A stretch of DNA of 40,360 nucleotides from a virus. The stretch lies in the IMG/VR virus record IMGVR_UViG_3300044858_000828, positions 1 to 40,360 of that record. The stretch is one strand, 5' to 3'. This document shows, one piece after another, positions 4,063 to 40,235 of this stretch (position 1 is the stretch's first letter; each line of letters starts with the position of its first letter). A program made the translations under genes and the position numbers. The notes under the pieces were generated by a model. It was not told where the DNA came from, did no database searches, and saw only the letters and a list, made by a program, of their open reading frames with translations.

Positions 4063-4509
4063 GTGGCTAGTAAAAGTAAAACAAAAGGCTCTGCTTTTGA
4101 AGCTAAAATTAGAGACATTCTTACAGAAGAACTGAATATAAAATTTGAAAGGATGCCGTTAAGTGGGTCCATATCTTACCTAAAAGGTGATTTATGGGTT
4201 CCATCTGATACGGCATCTTTTCCTTATACAATAGAATGTAAACATTATGCAGAGTTGGAGTTTAATAACTTACTTACTGCTAAGACTACCGACATACTAG
4301 AATTCTGGAAACAGGCTATGGAAGAAGCTAAGGTAATGAATAAAAAACCTTTACTTATCTTTAGATGGAATAGAAGTAAAGATTTTATATGTTGGGATTC
4401 AGATATAGAGCTAGAGCACCAAATAGAATATAAAGTATTTGGTTATAAGTTTAAGATGGGTCTTTTATCTGATTGGCTAGATAAGTTTAAACTTACTAAA
4501 GCTTCTTGA
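4063..4509 (+). CDS. PD-(D/E)XK nuclease, Holliday-junction-resolvase-like
   Basis: This 148-residue protein shows the elements of the PD-(D/E)XK fold: KGSAFEAK with an early Glu, then KGDLWVP with the metal-binding Asp, then IECKH as the E-x-K motif (about residues 8-60). This layout resembles Hjc/VRR-type Holliday junction resolvases, which cut branched DNA. That would fit beside a recombination ATPase and a 5'-3' exonuclease, but a restriction- or repair-type nuclease is also possible. The start is taken as GTG at 4063 after a purine-rich stretch (AAGAAAGAGAG). An ATG at 4058 lies in another frame and closes after about 25 codons. The stop codon overlaps the -35 box of the next promoter. 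Confidence 0.65.
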   Translation: MASKSKTKGSAFEAKIRDILTEELNIKFERMPLSGSISYLKGDLWVPSDTASFPYTIECKHYAELEFNNLLTAKTTDILEFWKQAMEEAKVMNKKPLLIFRWNRSKDFICWDSDIELEHQIEYKVFGYKFKMGLLSDWLDKFKLTKAS

Positions 4510-4534
4510 CCTGACTACAATAATACGGTATAAT
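4506..4534 (+). promoter_or_regulatory. Sigma70-type promoter giving a predicted leaderless exonuclease mRNA
   Basis: TTGACC (4506-4511), a 17-nt spacer and TATAAT (4529-4534) form a near-perfect sigma70 promoter. The -35 box overlaps the upstream stop codon. Only six bases separate the -10 box from the ATG at 4541, so transcription should start at or within a base or two of the start codon. No Shine-Dalgarno sequence is present. Confidence 0.75.
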
Positions 4535-4540
4535 ATACAA

Positions 4541-5422
4541 ATGATGGAACAAGATACAAAAGGTTGGAATGATCTTTCAGAATTAGAATCATACATTCCT
4601 CAAAAACCTGTTGTAAGTGGAAAAAATATACTTATTTGCGATGGCAATAACTTAGGGTATAGATACTTACAGCGAAGAAATTACAATAACTTCAAGGATG
4701 ATTATTGCAGAACAGTAGAGAGCCTAGCTAAAAGCTACGGCTGCAAGGATATTATAGTAGCCTTTGATTTTGGTAAAAGCTATTATCGAACTAACTTTTA
4801 TCCTGAGTATAAAGCTACTCGTAAAAAGCCTCAAGACGAAAAAGAGAAAGAGCACTACGATCAGTTTTTTGCTTGTCTAAACGACGTAGCAGATACTATA
4901 CCTTTCTCAGTAACTAAGTTTAGAGGAGTAGAAGCAGACGATCTGATAACCTATGCTGTTCTAAAAAATAGAAACACAGCAGATCATATTTGGGTTATTT
5001 CTAGCGATAGAGACATATATCAACTCCTAGACAAGAATATCAGCATTTTCAATATTTTCTCTAGAAAAGAGATTACCGTAGATTCTCTATATGAAAAACT
5101 ACAAGTAACTCCTAAAGAGTATATGATATCTAGAATTATCTCTGGAGATAGTGGAGATAATATCGTAGGTATTGAAGGTATAGGCGAAAAGCGTGCTACT
5201 GCTATAGCTAGAGAGCATAAAACTTTTACTGCTCTACTAGAGGCCTTACCACTAAAAGGTAGATCTAAGTATATTCAAAATCTAAACGTAGGCAAAGATA
5301 TACTAATTCGTAATGAGAAGTTAATTAACCTTATCAAATACAATGAAGAAGCTATCCTATCAGGAAAAGGCGAAGAGATAAATTTGGAGACGTTAAATGC
5401 AATCACAACCTTTAACCATTAA
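4541..5422 (+). CDS. 5'-3' exonuclease / flap endonuclease (T5 D15 / PolI N-domain family)
   Basis: This 293-residue FEN-family nuclease removes 5' flaps and RNA primers during phage DNA replication. Visible landmarks are the N-terminal metal Asp in ILICDGNNLG, VAFDFGKSYYRT with the following KATRK helical-arch region, GVEADD with paired acidic ligands, SSDRD, and SGDSGDN followed by a helix-hairpin-helix segment GIEGIGEKRA. These match the expected order of catalytic Asp clusters and the DNA-binding HhH. The start ATGATG directly follows a strong promoter and has no ribosome site; no good alternative start exists between it and the first catalytic motif. The 3' end overlaps the dUTPase gene by 26 nt, which suggests coupled translation. 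Confidence 0.93.
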   Translation: MMEQDTKGWNDLSELESYIPQKPVVSGKNILICDGNNLGYRYLQRRNYNNFKDDYCRTVESLAKSYGCKDIIVAFDFGKSYYRTNFYPEYKATRKKPQDEKEKEHYDQFFACLNDVADTIPFSVTKFRGVEADDLITYAVLKNRNTADHIWVISSDRDIYQLLDKNISIFNIFSRKEITVDSLYEKLQVTPKEYMISRIISGDSGDNIVGIEGIGEKRATAIAREHKTFTALLEALPLKGRSKYIQNLNVGKDILIRNEKLINLIKYNEEAILSGKGEEINLETLNAITTFNH

Positions 5423-5876
5423 TGTTAAGGTAGAAAAAACCGGCAAGGCTCACGTCTTGGAGAAGAAGCTAGACATTAGTTGGGATATCGCTAGACATTT
5501 CGATTTTGATGCTGGATATGACGTTAGAGCCGCTATCTACGAACCTTTAACTATATTTAGTAGAAAGTTTGAAGTAATTCCTATAGGTCTGAAATTTGAA
5601 ATTCAAGATCCTTATTGGGAGATACAAGTCAGATCCAGAAGTGGCTTAGCGGCTAAACATGGCGTATTCGTACTGAACAGCCCTGGAACTGTAGATTATG
5701 GATATAGACAAGAGGTTCAAGTAATTCTATTTAATAACGGAAGTAAGGATTTCGTAGTGAATCCGGGAGATAGAATTGCACAGATGTGTGTAAGACCTGT
5801 TCCTCAAGTATCTTTCACCTACGGACAGGTAGAAGAAACTATACGTGGAGGATTTGGTAGCTCCGGTGTATCCTAA
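5397..5876 (+). CDS. dut: dUTP diphosphatase
   Basis: This protein hydrolyses dUTP to dUMP and PPi, keeping uracil out of DNA and supplying dUMP to ThyX encoded just downstream. All five dUTPase motifs are present in its 159 residues: AGYDVRA (I), RSRSGLA (II), GTVDYGYRQE (III), PGDRIAQ (IV) and the C-terminal Phe-Gly arm RGGFGSSG (V), so it should be the trimeric type. Motif III has Gln where Gly usually follows the Tyr-x pair (YRQE instead of YRGE), an unusual change next to the uracil pocket. A GGAG at 5385-5388, 8 nt before the ATG, sits inside the upstream exonuclease gene. Confidence 0.95.
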   Translation: MQSQPLTINVKVEKTGKAHVLEKKLDISWDIARHFDFDAGYDVRAAIYEPLTIFSRKFEVIPIGLKFEIQDPYWEIQVRSRSGLAAKHGVFVLNSPGTVDYGYRQEVQVILFNNGSKDFVVNPGDRIAQMCVRPVPQVSFTYGQVEETIRGGFGSSGVS

Positions 5877-6054
5877 TAAATATTTTGATTGGTTCTTATT
5901 AGTAATAAGTATATCAATGACCATATTTGTGTATGTTGCACATGGGCCATATTTCTACTTATTTATGAGCCTAGTATATATCGTAACAATGTTTTTACTA
6001 ATCAAAGCCTTGTTCGATTTTAATAATAGAATGAAAAGGTGGTTAAAATTCTAA
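5845..6054 (+). CDS. Small two-helix membrane protein of unknown function
   Basis: This short ORF (up to 69 residues) lies between dut and thyX, overlapping the end of dut. It encodes two hydrophobic stretches, about residues 15-33 (FDWFLLVISISMTIFVYVA) and 36-57 (YFYLFMSLVYIVTMFLLIKA), followed by a basic tail (RMKRWLKF), as expected for a double-spanning inner-membrane protein with a cytoplasmic C-terminus. The start is uncertain: GTG at 5845, TTG at 5854 and GTG at 5866 are all possible. Its stop overlaps the ATG of thyX (TAATG), which supports it being translated. I do not recognise the family. Confidence 0.55.
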   Translation: MEDLVAPVYPNKYFDWFLLVISISMTIFVYVAHGPYFYLFMSLVYIVTMFLLIKALFDFNNRMKRWLKF

Positions 6055-6734
6055 TGATTGTTAGACTAATAAGTTACTCTCAACCTACCGACGAACTATA
6101 TAATCAAGGTATAGTAGATGCTCAGGAATTAGTTGCATATTGCGCTAGAGTATCTAATCCTACAAATCAATTTAATACCGAAACTAGTGAAAAACTTATC
6201 AGATATCTCATTAAGAATAAGCACTGGTCGCCTTTAGAGATGGTAAATGTATGCCTAGAGGTTGAAACTACTAGAGACATAGCTCATCAAATAATTCGTC
6301 ATAAGAGTTATGCCTTTCAAGAGTTCTCACAAAGATATGCAGAACCTAAAGAACTAGGAAATATGTTTGAATTTAGGGAAACTAGATTTCAAGATACTAA
6401 GAATAGGCAAAAATCTATAGACCTAGATCCTGCAGACCCTAGCCAAGTAGACATAGATAAAACTTGGCAAGAATATCAACGAGCTATTGCATACTTAGCT
6501 GGAGAATATTATAAGTGGGCTGTAAGCAATGGAATTGCTAAGGAGCAAGCTAGAGCAATACTTCCAGAAGGTTTAACTAAAACTAGACTATATATGAATG
6601 GAAGTCTACGTAGTTGGATACATTATATAGAATTGCGTAGTGATAATGGAACCCAAAAAGAGCATATGTTAATTGCTAAAGAATGTGCTAAAGTAATTAA
6701 TCAAGTCTTTCCAATGATGAAAACCCCGGAATAA
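6054..6734 (+). CDS. thyX: Flavin-dependent thymidylate synthase
   Basis: This enzyme makes dTMP from dUMP using FAD, NADPH and methylenetetrahydrofolate. The protein is about 226 residues, a usual ThyX size. It carries the signature as RHKSYAFQEFSQRY, which fits R-H-R-x7-S with Lys in place of the third Arg. HWSPLE, near the N-terminus, is the typical folate-side segment. The ATG at 6054 overlaps the previous stop and has AGGTGG about 11 nt upstream; I preferred it to the GTG at 6039. With dut just upstream and the reductase in the same cluster, the phage encodes a route from ribonucleotides to dTTP precursors. Its stop codon lies within the loop of the terminator hairpin. Confidence 0.95.
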   Translation: MIVRLISYSQPTDELYNQGIVDAQELVAYCARVSNPTNQFNTETSEKLIRYLIKNKHWSPLEMVNVCLEVETTRDIAHQIIRHKSYAFQEFSQRYAEPKELGNMFEFRETRFQDTKNRQKSIDLDPADPSQVDIDKTWQEYQRAIAYLAGEYYKWAVSNGIAKEQARAILPEGLTKTRLYMNGSLRSWIHYIELRSDNGTQKEHMLIAKECAKVINQVFPMMKTPE

Positions 6735-6750
6735 CTTCCGGGGTTTTTTT
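6721..6750 (+). terminator. Rho-independent terminator between convergent modules (possibly bidirectional)
   Basis: An 11-bp perfect stem (6721-6731 with 6736-6746) with core CCCCGGAA/TTCCGGGG and a 4-nt loop is followed by T's to 6750. The loop TAAC holds most of the thyX stop codon. On the - strand the same stem ends in TTTTC, so it could also stop late transcription. Confidence 0.92.
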
Positions 6751-14000: not shown

Positions 14001-14197
14001 GCTAATCCAGTAACAGTAAATTCTAAGTTACCATTTTTTATAGTTCTATCTCCAGTAACATCTACTCTATTTACTGATGTGCATAACAGAGGTATAGATC
14101 CTAGAAGGGTATTAAATCCATTTTTGCCTACCAGAGCTACTCCGATACCATTAGATATATTAGAAGTATTTTCTACGGTTATTGTTTTATATGCCAT
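11078..14197 (-). CDS. Large FN3-type tail-tip protein (J C-terminal-half-like)
   Basis: This 1039-residue beta-rich protein has fibronectin-III-like stretches in the middle (about residues 410-640, for example LPIGKVTDLQISES and KPDGVTRFSASQLG followed by FSWTVPRD). These correspond to the FN3 part of lambda gpJ. The C-terminal segment, with LRYAVNLTRKVFS and then YYSSNGVSVTGITVDIKA, matches the central-fibre end seen in other tail-tip proteins. The start overlaps the stop of the J-like gene by 1 nt (TAATG), so the two are coupled. I infer that the J function is divided between these two genes; it may instead be an accessory tip fibre. Confidence 0.7.
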   Translation of the reverse strand: MAYKTITVENTSNISNGIGVALVGKNGFNTLLGSIPLLCTSVNRVDVTGDRTIKNGNLEFTVTGLASAIDLNFNKNVLLVNDDPAVFGNLKGIDYVGIPINEKTDTGADIGHVGYNPIVTQISMPIESFNLSNNTLKVNNSVSANHPETFLLDSLPEPPFYLKISQLLDQTKFNNNSVYLEGYSHIFTKTFNIEAIAVAGSSTVDINIVPRYKTAISVYIDNQEQAQGVFTWDSKSNITVQTGTGKVLTVRTNHYTVPIIEPGDNISLFSGNIYAVSETSYNSSSPSYNAYLTTNCIYRVKFATSLTANISGVTGVNISNDIQGTVGNLNATANTFTLDYDNTIYPGVYELGSYKVYNVSLSKTFESLDISKEGKIKNIAPGSYVVRARNKNSFNRKSAYSTKQVNIDTLPIGKVTDLQISESLYRDKQVGIAVRATINFTPIVNQSVTDYEISYKIEDNSSGADLLTYTTVKVSASGIAEDGKLYFKIDNIERGASAGNYRFYARVTPLNNDIRGITTETSADIVGKTAKPDGVTRFSASQLGDQILFSWTVPRDQNGDPLEIDLYQFEIKQLTGTYSSVTESNWESSTSIGSAFANVSFLNAPVREYGTFTYLLRTRDTTGNQCEASDIAIFTITTIRPASLFTFRAFSEDNPGANDYISGSTNNNYFEYYYPSFANSVYGGIAGAGRSIVDNSNGTSTGFTVGVGVTDLNASANAVYYTQIRDLGQLITGRLVSSVNVIQSVTSTYNDFKENVLVGVSDALQSPGFFQDSALTTFLDIATYDTDNKTLTSGGPSGNVYAIWNYGQFVDDVSNANSYALILSVTNSSLGIIQFSNTYFANGVSTGSNILANLSGSATSYALVNLTQYNDRLTSTFEGPSNSISYNVDLRYSTASNVYYSGNNQVNTNAFVGFATNDGYAPLTESDITFRHFQLRVSIVNSKPGQVSTILDKLRYAVNLTRKVFSTSNTINSSNTTIDYSAAGFTVVPTITVSQTSGTDPVVPIITGKTNNQCGISLYYSSNGVSVTGITVDIKADGA

Positions 14198-17160
14198 TAC
14201 GATATGCCTTGTGCCAGCACTATTTCAGAGGGTTTAGCTAATTCCATTTCTGTAGCAATAGAAATTGGGTATCCGGTAGTATCAGTAGATGCATAAATCT
14301 CTAGGTCATACTGTACTGATCCATCTAAATTCTTTATAGGTCTAGGTATTACTTTTAATATAGGTGCAGGAGGTGGTATTAGAGGATTAGCTGTATCGGT
14401 ATATTTAACAGGAACGTAACTAATAATGCTATCAGAATCTGTATATACGTTAGATACATATTCTGTAGCAGTTATAGTAACTAACTCATCAGTATCTCTT
14501 TCTACGTTTACTATCTTAAATAGTTTATCATTAGTGTTGGTATAGTAATTAGAAGGATCTACTTCTCCTAAAGACCATATATCACCTTTTACGGGAACAT
14601 TATTAGAAGTAAAATTACTAAAAGAGGCAAAAGTTCTAGTCTGAGGTTTGTATACTTTTTGAACTGTAAGTTCAATAATGTCTATGCCTGCATTAACATT
14701 AGAACTAGATACAGAACTATAAGTATTATTACATATATACAACTCTACTCTCTCTGTCTCTCTATTAATTACTCTCAAAGCTATGGGTTTAGTGTTCCCA
14801 GTTATGACAGAACCTGTAATAGCGGGACTAGTAAAGTGTTCTAGTATTACATTTCCAGTAGCTGTAGTAGCGTTAGCAAATACTCTTCCTCCGTAACCCC
14901 AAGCTATACCTCCTATTCTTTGAGATACTGCTATAACATCTCCAATGGTAGAGGTCATACCTTCAGCAGGCGTTTTAAAAGTAGCCTTTCTTCTGACATA
15001 TTTGCTAGATGCTAATAAATACTGCCCAAACCTCATTGCCTGACTTCGTCTATCACAACCAGGTAAATCTATAGATTTTACATTTTCTATAGAATTAAGC
15101 TCAGATATAGCGGTAGGGTCGTCTATTCTTACTAACTCTCTACGAGAATGATTTCTAGGCTCAAGATAAGATACCTCTACGCCTGTTAAAATTTCTGACT
15201 CTCTGATACCACTAATTAGTAAAGAGTTTTTTAAGATATTTGTCTCATTATATACAGCTACGGGTATTTCATCAGGAAGATCTACATTTAATGAGATCTT
15301 TCCGCCAGAGTAGAACAGGATACCTCTAAATATAGCAGTAATCTGATTAATAATATCCATAACTTGTTTTTGGCTGTTAAGAGATATATTACAAGTAAAT
15401 CTGCGCTCTATGATCTGAGTTCCTAAACTAACTCCAATTTGATTTTCTCTTACTGTGGTAAATTTACCCCTAGGTTTACTTCTAAAGGTGCCGTCTGCAT
15501 ATCCAGTGACTCCTGTAAATCTACCTGTCTTAGGGTCAACTGCATCACAATATTGAGCTATCTTGTAGAATTTAAACTTATCTATGTTACCTTCTGGTAT
15601 TCCTAATCCGTAAGACTGGTTAGTTAATAAATCATATAGAACCCATATAGGATTCTGAGTCCATTTATAGACGAAAGTACCATCCCAGGATCCTTTATAA
15701 ATTATGGGATTAGCTTCTGTAAGCTGAGTAGAAGATCCTGGATTTTCTAAGCTATATCCACAAGTAGTGTAAGAAAGAGCGCCAGAAGTAGGAGTTTCTA
15801 ACTCTCTCCAATCAATTTCTCCTGTAGCTAATACAGGTTGATTATAATTACTAGGAACCTTTATTATAAGGCCTTTTACAAGCGAAGTAACAGTAGGAAT
15901 AGAGCCTGAATATTCAGCGGTAGATTTTAAAGCAAATCCTAGCAGTGCTGTTCTAGGGTATACCTGTTTAGAATTTTTTATCTCATCCCATCCAACAAAC
16001 TGTATAGTATCTTGTATTTTAGAGCTATCTGAATCATCAGTAATTTTTTCAATTTTAAACTGATATCCGTTTCCACTCTTGACATTATCAGGTATAATAG
16101 CTGAGATTTGAAATTTAAAATTAGTATTAGTTTTTCCTGATATAGTTTTTTCTATTATTAAATCATCCCCGTTTTCGTCTTTAAGTATATTAGCTCCTGT
16201 ATAGTCATAAATAGTTATTTTAACACCTACAGAGTAACCACTGACATTACCGTTGTTATCCATACTTTGTAGCCCAGAGATTAAGAAATTAAATTCTAAG
16301 CTATCCCAGGCGCTTTGACTTGTGTTTTGTGTAATAACTACTTTAGGTATACTCTCTAAATTACCCTTTTTAAGACTTACTGGGGAGTTTAGTCCTTGAG
16401 GTGTTACAGTTTTACCAGCAAATCTACCTAAACTAGCTGGCAATCCTTTACCCGTAACTGTCCCTGTTGACTGTGCCGTATAGAATAATTCAGTATTTAC
16501 AGTTCCATCACCATCTATTTTTATTAAGTCGTCTATAGTAGATTCGTTAAATTCTATATCTTGAGGGCCATTAGGATTAATACGATATACTGGTCCCTCT
16601 CCTAAAGCTAAAGTGCCGAAGAAAATATCAGTAGAAAATAGAGAATTAGGCGCCTCCACAGCAGGAGCTGGAGAAGCTCCCTTTCCTCCACCCTTATTAT
16701 GCACGCGAATGCCGTTGGCTATATAGGTATGATCATTTTCTACAGTAAAATTATATACTTTACTTTTACCTATATTTTTAATTTCTAAAATAGGTCTATA
16801 ATATCCTAATCTATCAACTAAGACATCATCTATTTGTAAATTACCTATAGCTGTAAAAGCCATATTCTCATTTAAAACCCAGTGATTAGGTGTTATTTTA
16901 AAACTACCATTCCAAAAAGAAATATCTACTAGCTCATCTTCATCGTGCTCGAATATTTGAATGACTTTATTCTCTGATAGTTTACCATAATGATCAAAGC
17001 TAATTACTATATCACCTACTCGTATTTCTTCAATAGGTTTATTACCGCCAGGAATATCTATAAGGGTTCCTGCCGCGAAGCATCCTCCTTTACCTCCAGA
17101 GATAAAGGGCACATATCTACCGTTTATAATATAGTAAGATTTATACATAGCTTGATACAT
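14197..17160 (-). CDS. Tail-tip hub protein, lambda gpJ N-terminal-half-like, with an inserted Hint (intein-like) domain
   Basis: This 987-residue protein forms the tip hub through which DNA leaves the tail. Residues 1-26 (ending GGKGG) are followed by a Hint domain at 27-155 and then KGGGKGASPAPAVEAPNSLF. That tail-tip start (Gly/Lys run, then a Pro-rich stretch and an N-S-L segment) is where gpJ proteins normally begin. J-type landmarks follow: NPIWVLYDLLTNQSYGLG, NSQKQVMDIINQITAIFRG and GKISLNVDLP. Unlike lambda gpJ, the FN3 part is in a separate downstream gene. The ATG at 17160 has AAAAGGTGATG upstream. Its 5' end overlaps the gpI paralog by 20 nt. Hub assignment is confident; fate of the Hint segment is unknown. 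Confidence 0.88.
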   Translation of the reverse strand: MYQAMYKSYYIINGRYVPFISGGKGGCFAAGTLIDIPGGNKPIEEIRVGDIVISFDHYGKLSENKVIQIFEHDEDELVDISFWNGSFKITPNHWVLNENMAFTAIGNLQIDDVLVDRLGYYRPILEIKNIGKSKVYNFTVENDHTYIANGIRVHNKGGGKGASPAPAVEAPNSLFSTDIFFGTLALGEGPVYRINPNGPQDIEFNESTIDDLIKIDGDGTVNTELFYTAQSTGTVTGKGLPASLGRFAGKTVTPQGLNSPVSLKKGNLESIPKVVITQNTSQSAWDSLEFNFLISGLQSMDNNGNVSGYSVGVKITIYDYTGANILKDENGDDLIIEKTISGKTNTNFKFQISAIIPDNVKSGNGYQFKIEKITDDSDSSKIQDTIQFVGWDEIKNSKQVYPRTALLGFALKSTAEYSGSIPTVTSLVKGLIIKVPSNYNQPVLATGEIDWRELETPTSGALSYTTCGYSLENPGSSTQLTEANPIIYKGSWDGTFVYKWTQNPIWVLYDLLTNQSYGLGIPEGNIDKFKFYKIAQYCDAVDPKTGRFTGVTGYADGTFRSKPRGKFTTVRENQIGVSLGTQIIERRFTCNISLNSQKQVMDIINQITAIFRGILFYSGGKISLNVDLPDEIPVAVYNETNILKNSLLISGIRESEILTGVEVSYLEPRNHSRRELVRIDDPTAISELNSIENVKSIDLPGCDRRSQAMRFGQYLLASSKYVRRKATFKTPAEGMTSTIGDVIAVSQRIGGIAWGYGGRVFANATTATGNVILEHFTSPAITGSVITGNTKPIALRVINRETERVELYICNNTYSSVSSSNVNAGIDIIELTVQKVYKPQTRTFASFSNFTSNNVPVKGDIWSLGEVDPSNYYTNTNDKLFKIVNVERDTDELVTITATEYVSNVYTDSDSIISYVPVKYTDTANPLIPPPAPILKVIPRPIKNLDGSVQYDLEIYASTDTTGYPISIATEMELAKPSEIVLAQGIS
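16696..17082 (-). other. Hint / bacterial intein-like (BIL) domain inside the J-like protein
   Basis: Residues 27-155 have a complete Hint layout and no homing endonuclease. Block A starts at C27 (CFAAGTLI) and continues PIEEIRVGDIV. Block B has T-x-x-H as TPNHW (T90, H93). Block F/G ends DHTYIANGIRVHN with His154-Asn155. The residue after Asn155 is Lys156, not Cys, Ser or Thr. This matches the A-type bacterial intein-like pattern rather than a classical intein. Joining the flanks would give a continuous GGKGG-KGGGKG run. Cleavage without ligation, or inefficient splicing, is expected. Confidence 0.88.
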
Positions 17161-17704
17161 TAATTACATCACCTTTTTCGTGATTAATAGTATTTACATC
17201 CGCACTAATAATCTGGCCGCCAACTCTCAACATACCATAGTTTAAAGGTATAGAATTACTGCTGTCAACTGTATTTATTATACCATCGAAAGCATCATTA
17301 TTTCTTCTATCCTGATCTGTTATACCTATATCAGATCTTTTTGGCTTAGGCATAATAGCTTGTATAACTGCGCCTAGAGCAAAGCTAATAACTGTTCCTA
17401 CTATTGCTCTAGTAAAAGCTTGAGCAAAAGTAGCGCTTGTTATTGACCCAAGGAGTTCACTATTTCCACAAACTAAAGGAACTACGAAACAACCTGTTTG
17501 AGTTTCTGGTATTTCATCCTGCATTAACCAACTATCTGGAAAGGGTTTGAAATCTTGGGTAAGAAGAAGTGTTTTTGTTTTATCTATGGCAGGATAAAAG
17601 TTTTGTATATAAGAAGTAAGATCAGATACTTTTTTAATATTTATAGCTACTTGAGCTATATCTTCTGGTTGTAATAAGGACTTATGAAAACGAATATTAT
17701 ACAT
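17141..17704 (-). CDS. Tail assembly protein, lambda gpI-like (paralog 2)
   Basis: This 187-residue protein (from the ATG at 17704) has an alpha/beta N-terminal part, a hydrophobic central segment (VGTVISFALGAVIQAI, roughly residues 105-120) and a conserved C-terminal part. The C-terminal block, with DRRNNDAFD, LNYGMLRVGGQII and SADVN, matches the protein encoded directly upstream and the gpI family, whose members act in tail-tip assembly with K and J. A GTG at 17716 is possible, but the ATG overlaps the preceding stop region and looks better. No ribosome site is clear. It overlaps the J-like gene at its end. Confidence 0.8.
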   Translation of the reverse strand: MYNIRFHKSLLQPEDIAQVAINIKKVSDLTSYIQNFYPAIDKTKTLLLTQDFKPFPDSWLMQDEIPETQTGCFVVPLVCGNSELLGSITSATFAQAFTRAIVGTVISFALGAVIQAIMPKPKRSDIGITDQDRRNNDAFDGIINTVDSSNSIPLNYGMLRVGGQIISADVNTINHEKGDVINVSSYV

Positions 17705-18470
17705 AAGCTGCCACACTAATTACGTCAGTTTTTTCATGACTAATACTATTTACATCCGCGCTAATAATCTGTCCAGCGACTCTTAACATACCATAGTTGA
17801 GAGATATAGATTGGTTGGGATGTATAGTATTTATCTGACTATCAAAAGCATCATTATTACGTCTATCCCCAGAATCAGCAGAATCCATACTTTTAATTTT
17901 AGGTTTAATAGGGACTAGAGTATTTGAAACTATGTTTCCAACTGCACTAGCTATTCCTGCTGCTACGTAAGAACCTACTGTTCCTTGAAAAGCTGTAGTT
18001 CCTAGTCCAGCAGGACCTAATATAGTTTCTCCTAATACAGGAGTAGCAAACTGTTGAAATCCGTAAGCCCCCACCGCTGCAAAAGCTCCATTAATCAAAC
18101 CTCTAACGAGCGCCTGTCCTAAACTAGCACCTTGTAATAAAGAGACTGTGGTAGATAATACAAAACTTACTGCAAAAGCAGATAGAGGATCTACTCCACT
18201 TCCTTTAAAAACAGGAACTAAATAATAAATCTCACCTTCTTTAGCTAAAAATAAAAATTCTTCATTAGATAGATAGCGATTATTATGAACTATAGCTATC
18301 TCTTCTAAAGAGCTGAATTTAACGTGTTTTACTAAACGTTCCAGCTCTGGGAATAGGTTTAAAGAGTTTAAAAATAAAAAATAAATAGCGTCGGCTGTCA
18401 TCTCTACTTGTTTGACGCCGTTGGTATAAGGTAATAGACTTTTATGAAAAGATACAGTTACACTAGACAA
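17697..18470 (-). CDS. Tail assembly protein, lambda gpI-like (paralog 1)
   Basis: This 257-residue gpI-like protein has a ubiquitin-like N-terminal half, a long hydrophobic Gly/Ala-rich region (about residues 95-185, with GAFAAVGAYGF and YVAAGIASAVG) and the conserved end DRRNNDAFD...LNYGMLRVAGQIISADVN. It overlaps the JAMM gene upstream by 8 nt and the second gpI copy downstream. In lambda, I acts with K and J when the tail tip is built; the same order is kept here. Two paralogs suggest a duplication that has since diverged in the N-terminal half, with the shared C-terminal segment preserved. Confidence 0.82.
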   Translation of the reverse strand: MSSVTVSFHKSLLPYTNGVKQVEMTADAIYFLFLNSLNLFPELERLVKHVKFSSLEEIAIVHNNRYLSNEEFLFLAKEGEIYYLVPVFKGSGVDPLSAFAVSFVLSTTVSLLQGASLGQALVRGLINGAFAAVGAYGFQQFATPVLGETILGPAGLGTTAFQGTVGSYVAAGIASAVGNIVSNTLVPIKPKIKSMDSADSGDRRNNDAFDSQINTIHPNQSISLNYGMLRVAGQIISADVNSISHEKTDVISVAAYV

Positions 18471-33781: not shown

Positions 33782-35149
33782 TTATGCTCCAGAACGGATT
33801 ACTGATGCCATTGAATACTTGGTTGCATCAAGGGCAGCACTTGAGTTAGTTGTTAGTGCCTTCATGTCTAGGCGTGTGCTCATGTAGATTGCAGTTAGCT
33901 GACGACGTGGATCGTATTCGCTCTCAATCTCCATTGCACGGCGCTCAGCTACTAGGAACCCTGGCTTGTATACTAGTAGACCGATGTGACGGTCTGCACC
34001 GCCTACAACGTCTAGGAACTCAGTGATCATAACTGGAATTCCGTATACAGCTCCAAGAGCACCTGTTAGATAGGTTGCGTTTGGACCGAACTTATCAACT
34101 GTGCGGAAGTCTGAATTTGATACTAGCTCGTTATATCCTTCAATAGTTGTTAGATATACTAGGTGATCTCCTAGCTGTAGACCGTATTTACCTAATACGG
34201 CACGTGCGCTAGCAATGTTAGCTGGGGTAGCCTTGGTTGCGTTACCGCCGGTCTGAACACGGAGACCAGAGATATCATTGGCTAGGGTTGCAATTCCCTT
34301 GAATACTGCAGCATAACCAGTTCCTGCTGTGATAGCATTAGTTGGTGAAGCAGTGAACCCGCTTAGTGAACCGTCACCGCGTAGTAGAGCCTTGTCGATT
34401 GCACGGCCCATACGACGCATAGAAGCGGTACGTAGGAAGTCTAGTAGAGGAAGAATTGTATCTTCTTCTTCGTCCTTAGCTAGGTGTGTTGTAGCCATGA
34501 ACTTGTGAGGTGTGAAGTCTACAGACTTAATTGTGCTCTGGTTTGAAGTTGGCACGTTGGTAGCGTCGGCAATACCTGTGGTATATGTTCCGCTAGCGAA
34601 CTGTGCTACATCACCATCGGTGTCTTCGTCAGCAACTGGGACTCTGAAAGTCTTTGCGTCTACTGACATACGACGTAGCATTTTAGCAACAACTAGTTCC
34701 TGCTGTAGTTCAGTATAAACATCTGAGCTAAAGTTTGATAGGAACTGATCTACAGTTGTTACTGCCTTCATACGAGCACCTAGCTTGGTGTCGAATACAG
34801 ATTCCTTGCGAAGTGCCTTAGATAGTAGGTAGGCATTAGCAAGTTCACGCTGAGTGAACTGAGAAGCACGTGACTGCTCCTGGAATACCATCTTGCTGTT
34901 CTGTAGTGCAGCAATTTCGTCTTTGTACTTCTTGATCTGAGCCTGAAGTTCAGCAGCCTTTTCAGATTCACGAGGAGTATACTCACCGTACTTATCCTTT
35001 GCGTCTGCTTCCTTGATGATAGCTTCACCAGTCTTTTCAACTAGCTCAGCAACACGAGGCTCGGCAACCTTAGCTGTGGCAGTAGCCTCAGCCTTGGTTT
35101 CAGCAGTAGAACCAATAACAACTGGTTCGTCAACAGCCTGAGTAGCCAT
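33782..35149 (-). CDS. Major capsid protein from internal start (predicted)
   Basis: An in-frame ATG at 35149 (residue 499 of the long ORF; MATQAVDEPVVIGS) has AAAGGAG 9 nt upstream (ctcct on the + strand at 35159-35163), among the best ribosome sites in the window. It gives a 455-residue product: a delta-like helical region (to about residue 110; EYTPRESEKAAELQ) and the capsid fold. By eye, codons become clearly richer in G/C at third positions near here, as expected for the most abundant protein. Initiation here would separate the high demand for capsid from the low demand for protease. The long ORF still produces the fusion, possibly as a minor form. Confidence 0.78.
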   Translation of the reverse strand: MATQAVDEPVVIGSTAETKAEATATAKVAEPRVAELVEKTGEAIIKEADAKDKYGEYTPRESEKAAELQAQIKKYKDEIAALQNSKMVFQEQSRASQFTQRELANAYLLSKALRKESVFDTKLGARMKAVTTVDQFLSNFSSDVYTELQQELVVAKMLRRMSVDAKTFRVPVADEDTDGDVAQFASGTYTTGIADATNVPTSNQSTIKSVDFTPHKFMATTHLAKDEEEDTILPLLDFLRTASMRRMGRAIDKALLRGDGSLSGFTASPTNAITAGTGYAAVFKGIATLANDISGLRVQTGGNATKATPANIASARAVLGKYGLQLGDHLVYLTTIEGYNELVSNSDFRTVDKFGPNATYLTGALGAVYGIPVMITEFLDVVGGADRHIGLLVYKPGFLVAERRAMEIESEYDPRRQLTAIYMSTRLDMKALTTNSSAALDATKYSMASVIRSGA

Positions 35150-36643
35150 ATTTAATTTCTCCTTTGTTTGAGCTTCTAAATGACCGTGAAGCTTTAGCAT
35201 TATTTGTCGCATAGATGCTTCACTGTGCTCAATTTCTTTCAATTTATGAATAACTTGACAAATTCTATTTGCGACTACAAAGTCAGAATCAGTCCAGTTT
35301 TTAGTAGATACTAAGTTTATTGTTTTGTTTAGTTTTTCTTGTAGAGTTGGGTTAGTTTTTACTAGGTTGTCTGTTTTGAGATCATATAGATCTTTTTCGG
35401 TTACGTTATTTAAGTTTTTAAAGTTTGTTAGGATAGTCTGTTTTGTATCTTCATCTAAACTGAGTTCTTCGATCTCTGCTAGCTGAATATCAAAATTTGT
35501 TCCTACATCCCATATATTTAACACTTCTAGGGAAGTAGCGTCAATGTTTAAAATTTTATCAAGATGCTGTCCCTGTAAATCTACTTGTTTAAACTGGAAA
35601 CTTGGACTATCCGAAGTAGCAATCTTAGTAATTACATACCTCTCACCTTTTAGCTGAACAAATTGTCCATTAGCTAGTGCTCCAGTGCTTGCGCTTAATA
35701 GATTTACAAAAGGAATTGGCTCGTAAGGATCTGTTTCTTCTACAGTATCTTCTTCGGCTTGTTCAGAATCTTTTGTCTCTACTGTTTTCTGCACAGTATC
35801 TTCTGTTCCACTCATTAAAAAGATATTAGGAACGCTTTCCTCTTCTTCGTCTTCTTGCTCTGCGTGAACCGCGGTAGTAAGAATTCTGTGAGTGTGGCCT
35901 TCTGCAGCCTGAATTTGGCCATTAATTATCTGATGAACGTGCTCTCTAGAATCAGAGCCGAAAATAGTAGCGCCATCGTCTGTATCTGTCATTTGGAAAA
36001 TATGATAGTGTCCCATATCACGAGTAGTTATACCAATTCTATATGGGCCTTCGTTTTCTAAGATAGCTTTCTCTTCTGAAGTCATAGAAGCTTTAATCTC
36101 TTCTTCTTCTTTTGCATCTTGAACTGGAAAAGACTTTTTAAAGGTCTCATACTCTTCTTGATTTTCAAAATTCTTCTTTACAGAGAAAAGACTTTCCTGG
36201 TTAGCAGGAACACTTACAACGCTGATTTCTAGTAATTCAACATCAGATATAACGAATGTATCGTTAGCCTTATCTAGTTTTCCGTCTTTTACTAGAAAAC
36301 CTACGCTAAAACTTTTTAGGGCTCCGTCTTTTATGAGACTATGAACCCCGTGTAATTTTTCAGCAGCTTCACTAACGGAAGCCTCAATGAACATACCTTT
36401 TTTATCAACAGTTACTTTGTCTACTCTGCCGATCGGATTTTCGTGTTTGTGCTGATATAATAAAACAGGATTCTTACGAAACCTGTCTATTCCCTTAGCC
36501 CATGCTGCTGGAAGTACAACATCACCTGCGCGATCCTTATCTACAGTATTAGCATAGCCAGCAATTTTTAAACTTTTGCTACCTGTTTTCTTCTGTACAG
36601 AATTCGCTTCAAATGAGGCACTTAAGTAAAATTTCTTATCCAT
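33782..36643 (-). CDS. Prohead protease / scaffold / major capsid protein fusion
   Basis: This 953-residue ORF joins three parts. Residues 1-160 are an HK97-family (S78) prohead protease with H65 in QHKHENP, S113 in SFSVGF and ELLEISVVSVPAN. Residues 160-500 are an unusual linker/scaffold with three HxH motifs (H212/H214, H235/H237, H250/H252), acidic stretches and helices. Residues 550-953 hold an HK97-fold capsid protein (TVDQFLSNFSS, RMGRAIDKALLRGDG, ESEYDPRRQLT) after a charged delta-type coiled coil. Protease and capsid are usually separate genes. The long ORF may be cut by its own protease, and the capsid part has a strong start of its own. It overlaps portal by 8 nt. Confidence 0.9.
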   Translation of the reverse strand: MDKKFYLSASFEANSVQKKTGSKSLKIAGYANTVDKDRAGDVVLPAAWAKGIDRFRKNPVLLYQHKHENPIGRVDKVTVDKKGMFIEASVSEAAEKLHGVHSLIKDGALKSFSVGFLVKDGKLDKANDTFVISDVELLEISVVSVPANQESLFSVKKNFENQEEYETFKKSFPVQDAKEEEEIKASMTSEEKAILENEGPYRIGITTRDMGHYHIFQMTDTDDGATIFGSDSREHVHQIINGQIQAAEGHTHRILTTAVHAEQEDEEEESVPNIFLMSGTEDTVQKTVETKDSEQAEEDTVEETDPYEPIPFVNLLSASTGALANGQFVQLKGERYVITKIATSDSPSFQFKQVDLQGQHLDKILNIDATSLEVLNIWDVGTNFDIQLAEIEELSLDEDTKQTILTNFKNLNNVTEKDLYDLKTDNLVKTNPTLQEKLNKTINLVSTKNWTDSDFVVANRICQVIHKLKEIEHSEASMRQIMLKLHGHLEAQTKEKLNMATQAVDEPVVIGSTAETKAEATATAKVAEPRVAELVEKTGEAIIKEADAKDKYGEYTPRESEKAAELQAQIKKYKDEIAALQNSKMVFQEQSRASQFTQRELANAYLLSKALRKESVFDTKLGARMKAVTTVDQFLSNFSSDVYTELQQELVVAKMLRRMSVDAKTFRVPVADEDTDGDVAQFASGTYTTGIADATNVPTSNQSTIKSVDFTPHKFMATTHLAKDEEEDTILPLLDFLRTASMRRMGRAIDKALLRGDGSLSGFTASPTNAITAGTGYAAVFKGIATLANDISGLRVQTGGNATKATPANIASARAVLGKYGLQLGDHLVYLTTIEGYNELVSNSDFRTVDKFGPNATYLTGALGAVYGIPVMITEFLDVVGGADRHIGLLVYKPGFLVAERRAMEIESEYDPRRQLTAIYMSTRLDMKALTTNSSAALDATKYSMASVIRSGA

Positions 36644-39250: not shown

Positions 39251-39528
39251 TAAATAAGTCTAAATGTTTTGAGTATAAAAATGAAGAACGTAAACGTTCC
39301 AGCTCCTGCTCCTAGTAACCAGACTGTAGTAGAGATAGATGTTTTACCTTGCACGGCTATAGTAGACAATGTTTCTAGTTTAGCGGCAAGAGCGGCTATC
39401 TGACTATTACTAAATTCTAATTTTTCTAAAATCTGTTCATATCTTAAAGTGCATAGAGCCTCGTGAGTCTCTAATCTAGCCTTATTATTATAGGCAATTT
39501 CTTTAATCTTATCTACATCATCACTCAT
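39250..39528 (-). CDS. Coiled-coil plus C-terminal TM protein, possible holin/XhlA-like
   Basis: Of 92 residues, the first 60 form a charged helix (EAYNNKARLETHE region, EKLEFSNSQIAALAAKLETL) and about 66-88 a hydrophobic helix (TTVWLLGAGAGTFTFFIFIL), the layout of XhlA/haemolysin-type or class III-like holin partners. Lysis proteins often sit near terminase genes, but no endolysin is in the window. An alternative is a membrane-tethered packaging accessory. It overlaps phoH upstream by 4 nt and terL downstream by 1 nt. Confidence 0.5.
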   Translation of the reverse strand: MSDDVDKIKEIAYNNKARLETHEALCTLRYEQILEKLEFSNSQIAALAAKLETLSTIAVQGKTSISTTVWLLGAGAGTFTFFIFILKTFRLI

Positions 39529-40184
39529 TGTAAATGCCTCATAAGTTCTTTGACAAGATGGCTTCTAACAACATCATCTTGATAAAAACGCACTATTGAT
39601 ACGCTGGCACAATTAGACAATCGTCTAACTGCCCACTCTAATCCATTATCATGTCTAAGATCACTTTGATCGAGATCTCCCGTAATAGCTACTTTTACAC
39701 CTTCACCAAACCTAGTTAAAAACATCATCATCTGATCTCGGGTGCTATTTTGAGCCTCGTCTAGGATGACAAAGCTCTTATTAAAAGTTCTACCACGCAT
39801 GAATGCTAGTGGAGCTAGTTCTATCTCGCCAGACTGTATCATCGAATCTAGCTTCTTAACGCCAAACCTCTGTTCAAGGCAATCGAACAGAGGTCGCATA
39901 TAAGGATCTAATTTTTCTTCAAGAGTTCCAGGTAGAAAGCCAAAACTCTCATTGGTAACTGCAGGTCTTACTAGGATAATCTTATCTACTAGGCCTCGCT
40001 CGTATTCCCAAGCTGCTTGATATGCTGCTATATATGTTTTACCGCTTCCGGCGCTGCCTAATCCGATGGTAATCGGATAGTCTTGTAAGCTGCTGTAGTA
40101 TCTTCTTTGATTTTCTGTTTTAGGTATAAGACTTTTTTGATACCTAGGTTGTTCTTCAGGTTGTTGCTTGTACTTTTTAGACAT
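39525..40184 (-). CDS. phoH: PhoH-like ATPase
   Basis: This 219-residue P-loop ATPase has Walker A GSAGSGKT (residues 43-50), LVRPAVTN, Walker B FVILDEAQN (D142, E143), and AITGDLDQSDL. All belong to the PhoH family, frequent in marine phages. Its role in phage is unknown; RNA-linked or phosphate-stress functions have been suggested for the family. The ATG at 40184 has no clear Shine-Dalgarno, and a possible weak promoter lies upstream. Confidence 0.95.
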   Translation of the reverse strand: MSKKYKQQPEEQPRYQKSLIPKTENQRRYYSSLQDYPITIGLGSAGSGKTYIAAYQAAWEYERGLVDKIILVRPAVTNESFGFLPGTLEEKLDPYMRPLFDCLEQRFGVKKLDSMIQSGEIELAPLAFMRGRTFNKSFVILDEAQNSTRDQMMMFLTRFGEGVKVAITGDLDQSDLRHDNGLEWAVRRLSNCASVSIVRFYQDDVVRSHLVKELMRHLQ

Positions 40185-40206
40185 TAAAGATATAATAACT
40201 TTCTTA

Positions 40207-40235
40207 TTTATAACTGTAAAATGTTAATTATTTAA
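40207..40235 (-). promoter_or_regulatory. Weak candidate promoter for phoH
   Basis: On the - strand TTAAAT (40230-40235), 17 nt, then TATAAA (40207-40212) fit a weak sigma70 pattern. The surrounding DNA is very AT-rich, so this may be chance. Confidence 0.25.

Follow-up and report, generated by a model that had tools for sequence, protein, structure and literature searches.

A predicted leaderless-type promoter at the flap endonuclease gene of a T5-like phage and its counterparts in related viruses

The exonuclease gene and its surroundings

The DNA analysed here, called the window throughout, is a 40 360-nucleotide stretch of viral sequence (IMG/VR record IMGVR_UViG_3300044858_000828). Positions 4541–5422 (+) encode a 293-residue 5′–3′ exonuclease or flap endonuclease (FEN) resembling D15 of phage T5, with matches to Pfam PF02739 and PF01367 and to PHROG 107; the closest named phages are mostly T5-like (38–40% with tblastn). 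Upstream of FEN lie an SbcC-like gene, a B12-type ribonucleotide reductase (RNR), a glutaredoxin and a PDDEXK nuclease, the last being a PDDEXK/RusA-like gene at 4063–4509 (+) whose stop codon ends at 4509. Downstream lie a dUTPase gene (5397–5876, +), which is led by a Shine–Dalgarno (SD) sequence (GGAG) and probably shares a message with FEN, and the gene for the thymidylate synthase ThyX (6039–6734, +), the final gene of the rightward block. A hairpin resembling an intrinsic terminator (6719–6748, +) closes the block and is followed by converging structural genes. Elsewhere in the window, a single 953-residue reading frame (33782–36643, −) combines a prohead protease domain with a capsid domain, and two neighbouring genes (14197–17160, − and 17141–17716, −) have immediate upstream sequences that are near-duplicates of each other, which suggests a local duplication.

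The FEN gene is directly preceded by a promoter-like sequence. It consists of a −35 element, TTGACC (4506–4511, +), of which TTGA overlaps the TGA stop codon (4507–4509) of the PDDEXK gene, a 17 nt spacer (4512–4528, +), a −10 element, TATAAT (4529–4534, +), and a 6 nt discriminator, ATACAA (4535–4540, +), which leads into ATGATG from 4541. The initial annotation had read this arrangement as a near-consensus promoter giving rise to a leaderless mRNA. All of these elements are present in the sequence, the two hexamers agree with the consensus at 11 of 12 positions and, as had been stated, no SD precedes 4541, the nearest candidate being only a GGT 11 nt upstream. The contrast that had been drawn with AGGAG-led starts elsewhere in the window holds in part: 21 of its 35 ATG starts have a 4-base SD match and the remainder do not, several of the latter lying on or near the stop codon of the preceding gene.

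The N-terminus of FEN is conserved, which fixes the start codon by homology, and of the two ATG codons the first (4541) is taken as the start, since two relatives have ATA in place of the second (4544). The idea that two successive ATG codons assist initiation fared less well. The pair is not conserved, with ATG-ATA in two of the five distinct relatives (G003 and G004), although a second-codon ATG is somewhat commoner in genes of the leaderless type (4 of 35) than in other genes (21 of 1228). RNA folding revealed nothing unusual: the region 4509–4570 is weakly folded (−2.7 kcal/mol), and 4541–4600 has a z-score of 0.33 with its first 25 nt unpaired.

In an AT-rich window the hexamer pair alone is uninformative. 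Promoter-like pairs in positions 1–12 000 number 42, with no excess over shuffled sequence (39.5 ± 6.6), and TATAAT-N6-ATG with at most one mismatch occurs less often than in shuffled sequence (16 observed against a mean of 29), so that the pair by itself proves nothing. A match of such quality at a gene start does exceed chance. When the regions upstream of 34 genes of the window were shuffled, any gene reached 11 of 12 positions with a −10 element ending 5–8 nt before ATG in 3 of 2000 trials, and shuffles of the FEN upstream region alone reached the same match in 2 of 20 000.

Conservation of the promoter in close relatives

Relatives were drawn from IMG/VR and provide five distinct FEN upstream sequences (the window, G003, G004, G005 and G006) at 70–100% protein identity; G006 comprises part of the FEN gene only, and two further records (G001 and G002) repeat the upstream sequence of the window. 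In all five, TATAAT stands exactly 6 nt before ATG, the spacer is 17 nt long and there is no SD. The −10 element is invariant (0 of 6 columns vary), while three of the six −35 columns vary (TTGAC is kept in G003 and G004 and is replaced by TTGCTT in G005 and G006). The spacer and the discriminator are constant in length and almost free in sequence, with variation in 16 of 17 and five of six columns, respectively. Both the ATG start and the 6 nt gap are found in all seven FEN records of the clade.

Orthologs with leaders

The start of FEN is in view in 18 records. The seven just described (five distinct sequences) have the 6 nt gap and no SD, whereas the other 11, at 51–60% identity, all have an SD. 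In ten of these 11 a promoter matching 8–11 of 12 positions is present, with a −10 element that ends 22–32 nt before ATG and would give a leader of about 16–26 nt; G010, the remaining record, lacks a clear promoter. The −35 element of the leadered gene in G007, G013 and G015 is TTGACC, as in the window. As all outgroup FEN records have a leader, a single loss explains the pattern most simply, and the leader was probably lost once, in the clade of the window. The leaderless FEN records all come from this one clade, so that the loss there counts as one event.

Other genes vary in the same manner. DNA ligase has the 6 nt gap in three of ten records (G003, G033 and G034), and also in L124–L127, and an SD in six of the seven others. 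PolA has the 6 nt gap in two of 11 records (G036 and G038); a related promoter 29 nt from ATG is accompanied by an SD in G007, G013, G015 and G016, and an SD occurs with no clear promoter in G010 and G012. PolA of the window's own clade (G003, G033 and G034) lacks both an SD and a clear promoter in front of it and is uninformative. A gene for a 258-residue protein has a 7 nt gap in one of 11 records (G038) and an SD in nine of the ten others. There are two counter-cases, the ligase of G012 and the 258-residue gene of G036, which lack an SD under the 4-base rule though their promoters are further away.

The window contains a second gene of the leaderless type, which encodes a PhoH-like protein (39525–40184, −) and has no SD. 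Its start region reads TTTACA-17-TATTAT-7-ATG, with the promoter at 40191–40220 (−), and the 7 nt gap would make a one-base leader possible. The promoter is kept in G021, G026 and G027, and with TAATAT as the −10 element in G029, while the spacer sequence has changed in G021, G027 and G029 (in G021 the scan gives a spacing of 18 nt). In the PhoH-like gene of L071 the upstream sequence differs, with the −35 element, the −10 element and the 7 nt gap retained; in G007, G016 and G017 the gene is SD-led. A gene for a 406-residue protein with no Pfam or PHROG match (G026:36245–37465, −, identical to L084:17245–18465) has a start region, TATTATATTTTTAATG, that is a near-repeat of that of the PhoH-like gene, TATTATATCTTTAATG.

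Leaderless-type promoters as a class

Gene starts were scanned for a −35 element beginning with TT and matching at least four of six positions, a spacing of 16–18 nt and a −10 element matching at least five of six, using gene calls from a greedy open-reading-frame rule that were left uncurated. A clade set of 212 ATG genes (the window, G003 1–38000, G026 from 31701 and G033) gave 26 matches. Fourteen of these place the −10 element 5–8 nt before ATG, 12 of them at exactly 6 nt, and none has an SD; all four matches at 14–40 nt have one, and the rest of the 26 lie at other distances. The 14 represent ten gene families, as four are common to G003 and G033 and orthologs are counted repeatedly. G033 alone (72 kb) has seven genes with the 6 nt gap, in addition to those of the window. 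When all nine clade contigs are taken, orthologs included, there are 17 genes without and one with an SD at 5–8 nt, and one without and eight with an SD at 14–40 nt. Eleven outgroup contigs (941 genes) behave alike, with an SD at none of 17 matches at 5–8 nt and at 47 of 66 at 14–40 nt (Fisher 4 × 10⁻⁸).

The same scan of T5 (positions 1–100000) found no match at 5–8 nt against 13 at 14–40 nt, and in phage DSL-LC01 (positions 1–123000 of 129469) it found none in either range. Two control motifs gave no peak at 6 nt. Exact TATAAT within 60 nt of a start lies at 6 nt in eight of 20 cases, five of these eight being FEN orthologs. Among permuted hexamers, only ATTATA has a similar peak (four at 6 nt), which is consistent with the TATTAT-N7-ATG of the PhoH start region. 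Promoter spacing of this kind is found at 37 of 1795 candidate ATG starts, one of 338 GTG starts and none of 535 TTG starts (p = 6 × 10⁻⁶), and this near-exclusive use of ATG matches the prediction of leaderless initiation.

The virus and its probable host

The 72 kb record G033 overlaps positions 1–2876 of the window at 100% identity, so we take the two to be parts of one virus with a genome of about 109 kb or more. The gene order of the window (SbcC, nuclease, FEN, dUTPase and terminator, with converging structural genes) is T5-like. Its portal protein is approximately 36% identical over 92–94% to those of Vibrio, Erwinia and Pectobacterium phages with genomes of 106–122 kb, but there are also matches to phages of Mycobacterium, Gordonia and Staphylococcus.

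G033 contains 28 tRNA genes (ARAGORN) and a permuted tmRNA that scores as alpha_tmRNA. This RNA (L136:6419–6768) and its counterpart in G003 (L058:15413–15731) both have the tag ANDNSIE[GE]IRLAA, and permuted tmRNAs of the alphaproteobacterial type also occur in L139, L111 and L143. Of the seven records searched whole, five (G003, G033, G034, G016 and G038) have alpha_tmRNA (RF01849), and it was not found in the other two, the window and G036. Within the tRNA array of G033 lie a GOLLD RNA (RF02032, 205 bits; L135:4210–4668, −) and a tRNA with the anticodon CUA (labelled Pyl by ARAGORN; L134:11618–11691, −), possibly an amber suppressor.

The tmRNA type suggests that the host is an alphaproteobacterium; scans of genome contigs for a direct link to a host genome found no relative. 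The RNR is closest to that of the Actinomycetia phage DSL-LC01 (42.7%), but an actinobacterial host was dropped because no WhiB-type gene was found in 14 records, DSL-LC01 shows no leaderless-spaced promoters in positions 1–123000 and an alpha tmRNA is present. The lack of a WhiB-type gene in all 14 records is weak evidence, as these are fragments. Lysis families were no guide to the host (Rz in none and M15_4 in one of the 14 records).

Leaderless messages have been mapped in alphaproteobacteria. Caulobacter has 375 leaderless mRNAs, with a translation efficiency similar to that of other messages (PMC4117421, in part), and the 171 reported for Sinorhizobium meliloti all start with AUG (PMC3616915, in part). 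Excerpts of a further study indicate that non-AUG codons work less well at leaderless starts in both Escherichia coli and Caulobacter (PMC9031893). The messages predicted here resemble these in their AUG starts, and the Caulobacter mRNAs are, by the portions cited, efficiently translated; the difference is that the cellular ones were mapped experimentally in cells, while ours are predicted in a virus of unproven host.

A model for expression of the exonuclease

In the usual promoter geometry, transcription starts at the seventh nucleotide past the end of the −10 element. With a gap of 6 nt, the A of the ATG at 4541 is therefore the +1 position. The arrangement would then be a σ70-type promoter fused to the gene that it drives: RNA polymerase would start on this A and produce an mRNA with a 5′-terminal AUG and no leader, on which ribosomes would initiate without SD pairing. 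We infer with good confidence that transcription starts at 4541 and that translation initiates on the terminal AUG. This agrees with the initial annotation, and the prediction draws support from the conservation of the −10 element and of the exact 6 nt gap, from the SD-leadered orthologs, from a group-wide, SD-less peak at 6 nt that is absent from T5, and from the near-exclusive use of ATG. In the clade of the window the arrangement would have replaced an ancestral promoter with an SD leader. The FEN promoter would thus be one of a leaderless class in a group of T5-like lake phages; their hosts are probably alphaproteobacteria, in which ribosomes accept such mRNAs.

A leadered FEN message is also expected, because the promoter sits within the rightward gene block and upstream transcripts can read through. 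It is unlikely, in our view, that the exonuclease is made mainly from these read-through messages, with ribosomes initiating independently of an SD where the RNA is A/U-rich and weakly folded, and with the leaderless RNA a minor product of a real promoter. FEN does share its strand with the RNR, glutaredoxin and PDDEXK genes that precede it, the folding energy of 4509–4570 is only −2.7 kcal/mol, and D15 of T5 starts on the stop codon of D14 without an annotated promoter of its own. Expression of this kind, however, has no need to conserve TATAAT and an exact 6 nt gap; moreover, the leadered orthologs have an SD, and ATG is used almost exclusively. Less likely still is a transcription start 1–4 nt upstream of ATG, in which case the message would not be strictly leaderless but would have a very short leader. 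Start sites generally vary by 1–2 nt and a 7 nt gap is seen at the PhoH-like gene and a few others, but the commonest gap is exactly 6 nt, as in 12 of the 14 clade-set matches, and standard geometry then assigns +1 to the A. We assign negligible probability to a chance origin, in which near-consensus hexamers occur everywhere in an AT-rich genome and one happens to precede the gene: the shuffle-level number of pairs in 1–12 000 and the scarcity of TATAAT-N6-ATG (16 against 29 with at most one mismatch) fit it, but it is contradicted by a conserved −10 element next to a drifting spacer and also by the gene-start shuffles, the spacing scan, the start-codon bias and the contrast between orthologs.

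Beyond the leaderless start itself, leader length might be a regulatory state, AUG at +1 or an SD leader of about 15–26 nt, between which orthologous replication genes switch; we regard this as quite doubtful. FEN, ligase, PolA, PhoH and small genes, which make up the leaderless set, could form a translational class that is favoured when the ribosomes or initiation factors of the infected cell are altered, perhaps with help from the tmRNA and tRNAs that the phage encodes.

Comparison with known systems and implications

To our knowledge, leaderless translation in phages is known mainly from λ cI, which is one repressor gene of a temperate phage. FEN is likewise a phage gene with a predicted translation start on a 5′-terminal AUG; the difference is that it belongs to a class with replication and nucleotide enzymes among its members. 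The cI transcript is named as a leaderless mRNA in an excerpt of PMC9031893.

In cells, leaderless genes with a −10 element beside the reading frame are well known, at least from parts of two studies: TA-like (−10) signals beside the start codon were described in cellular genomes (Zheng et al., 2011; PMC3160421), as was a TANNNT motif at leaderless genes of Deinococcus (PMC12340547). As far as these excerpts go, the cellular TA-like genes share with ours a −10 element about 12 nt upstream of ATG, the lack of an SD, the use of AUG and a leader state that changes between orthologs; ours differ in belonging to a T5-like phage group and in having a recognizable −35 element as well as the −10 element.

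The order in T5 itself (AY543070) is D13-D14-D15-dut-terminator-tail, and its D14-D15-dut region resembles the window in the succession of nuclease region, FEN, dUTPase, terminator and converging tail genes. The RNR, glutaredoxin and ThyX genes are extra in the window. T5 differs in that D15 lies on the D14 stop codon with no annotated promoter and in having no leaderless-spaced promoters in positions 1–100000. No report of a leaderless promoter class in a T5-like phage was apparent among the literature matches listed, beyond which papers may exist.

Taken together, the comparisons indicate that the predicted leaderless promoter is a recurring, evolvable design in related viruses and not an accident. 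The finding is a caution for gene callers that depend on SD sites. It also provides, within one phage group, a natural series of orthologous promoters, both leadered and leaderless, with which one can test directly how leaders are lost in evolution and whether the loss is costly or beneficial during infection.
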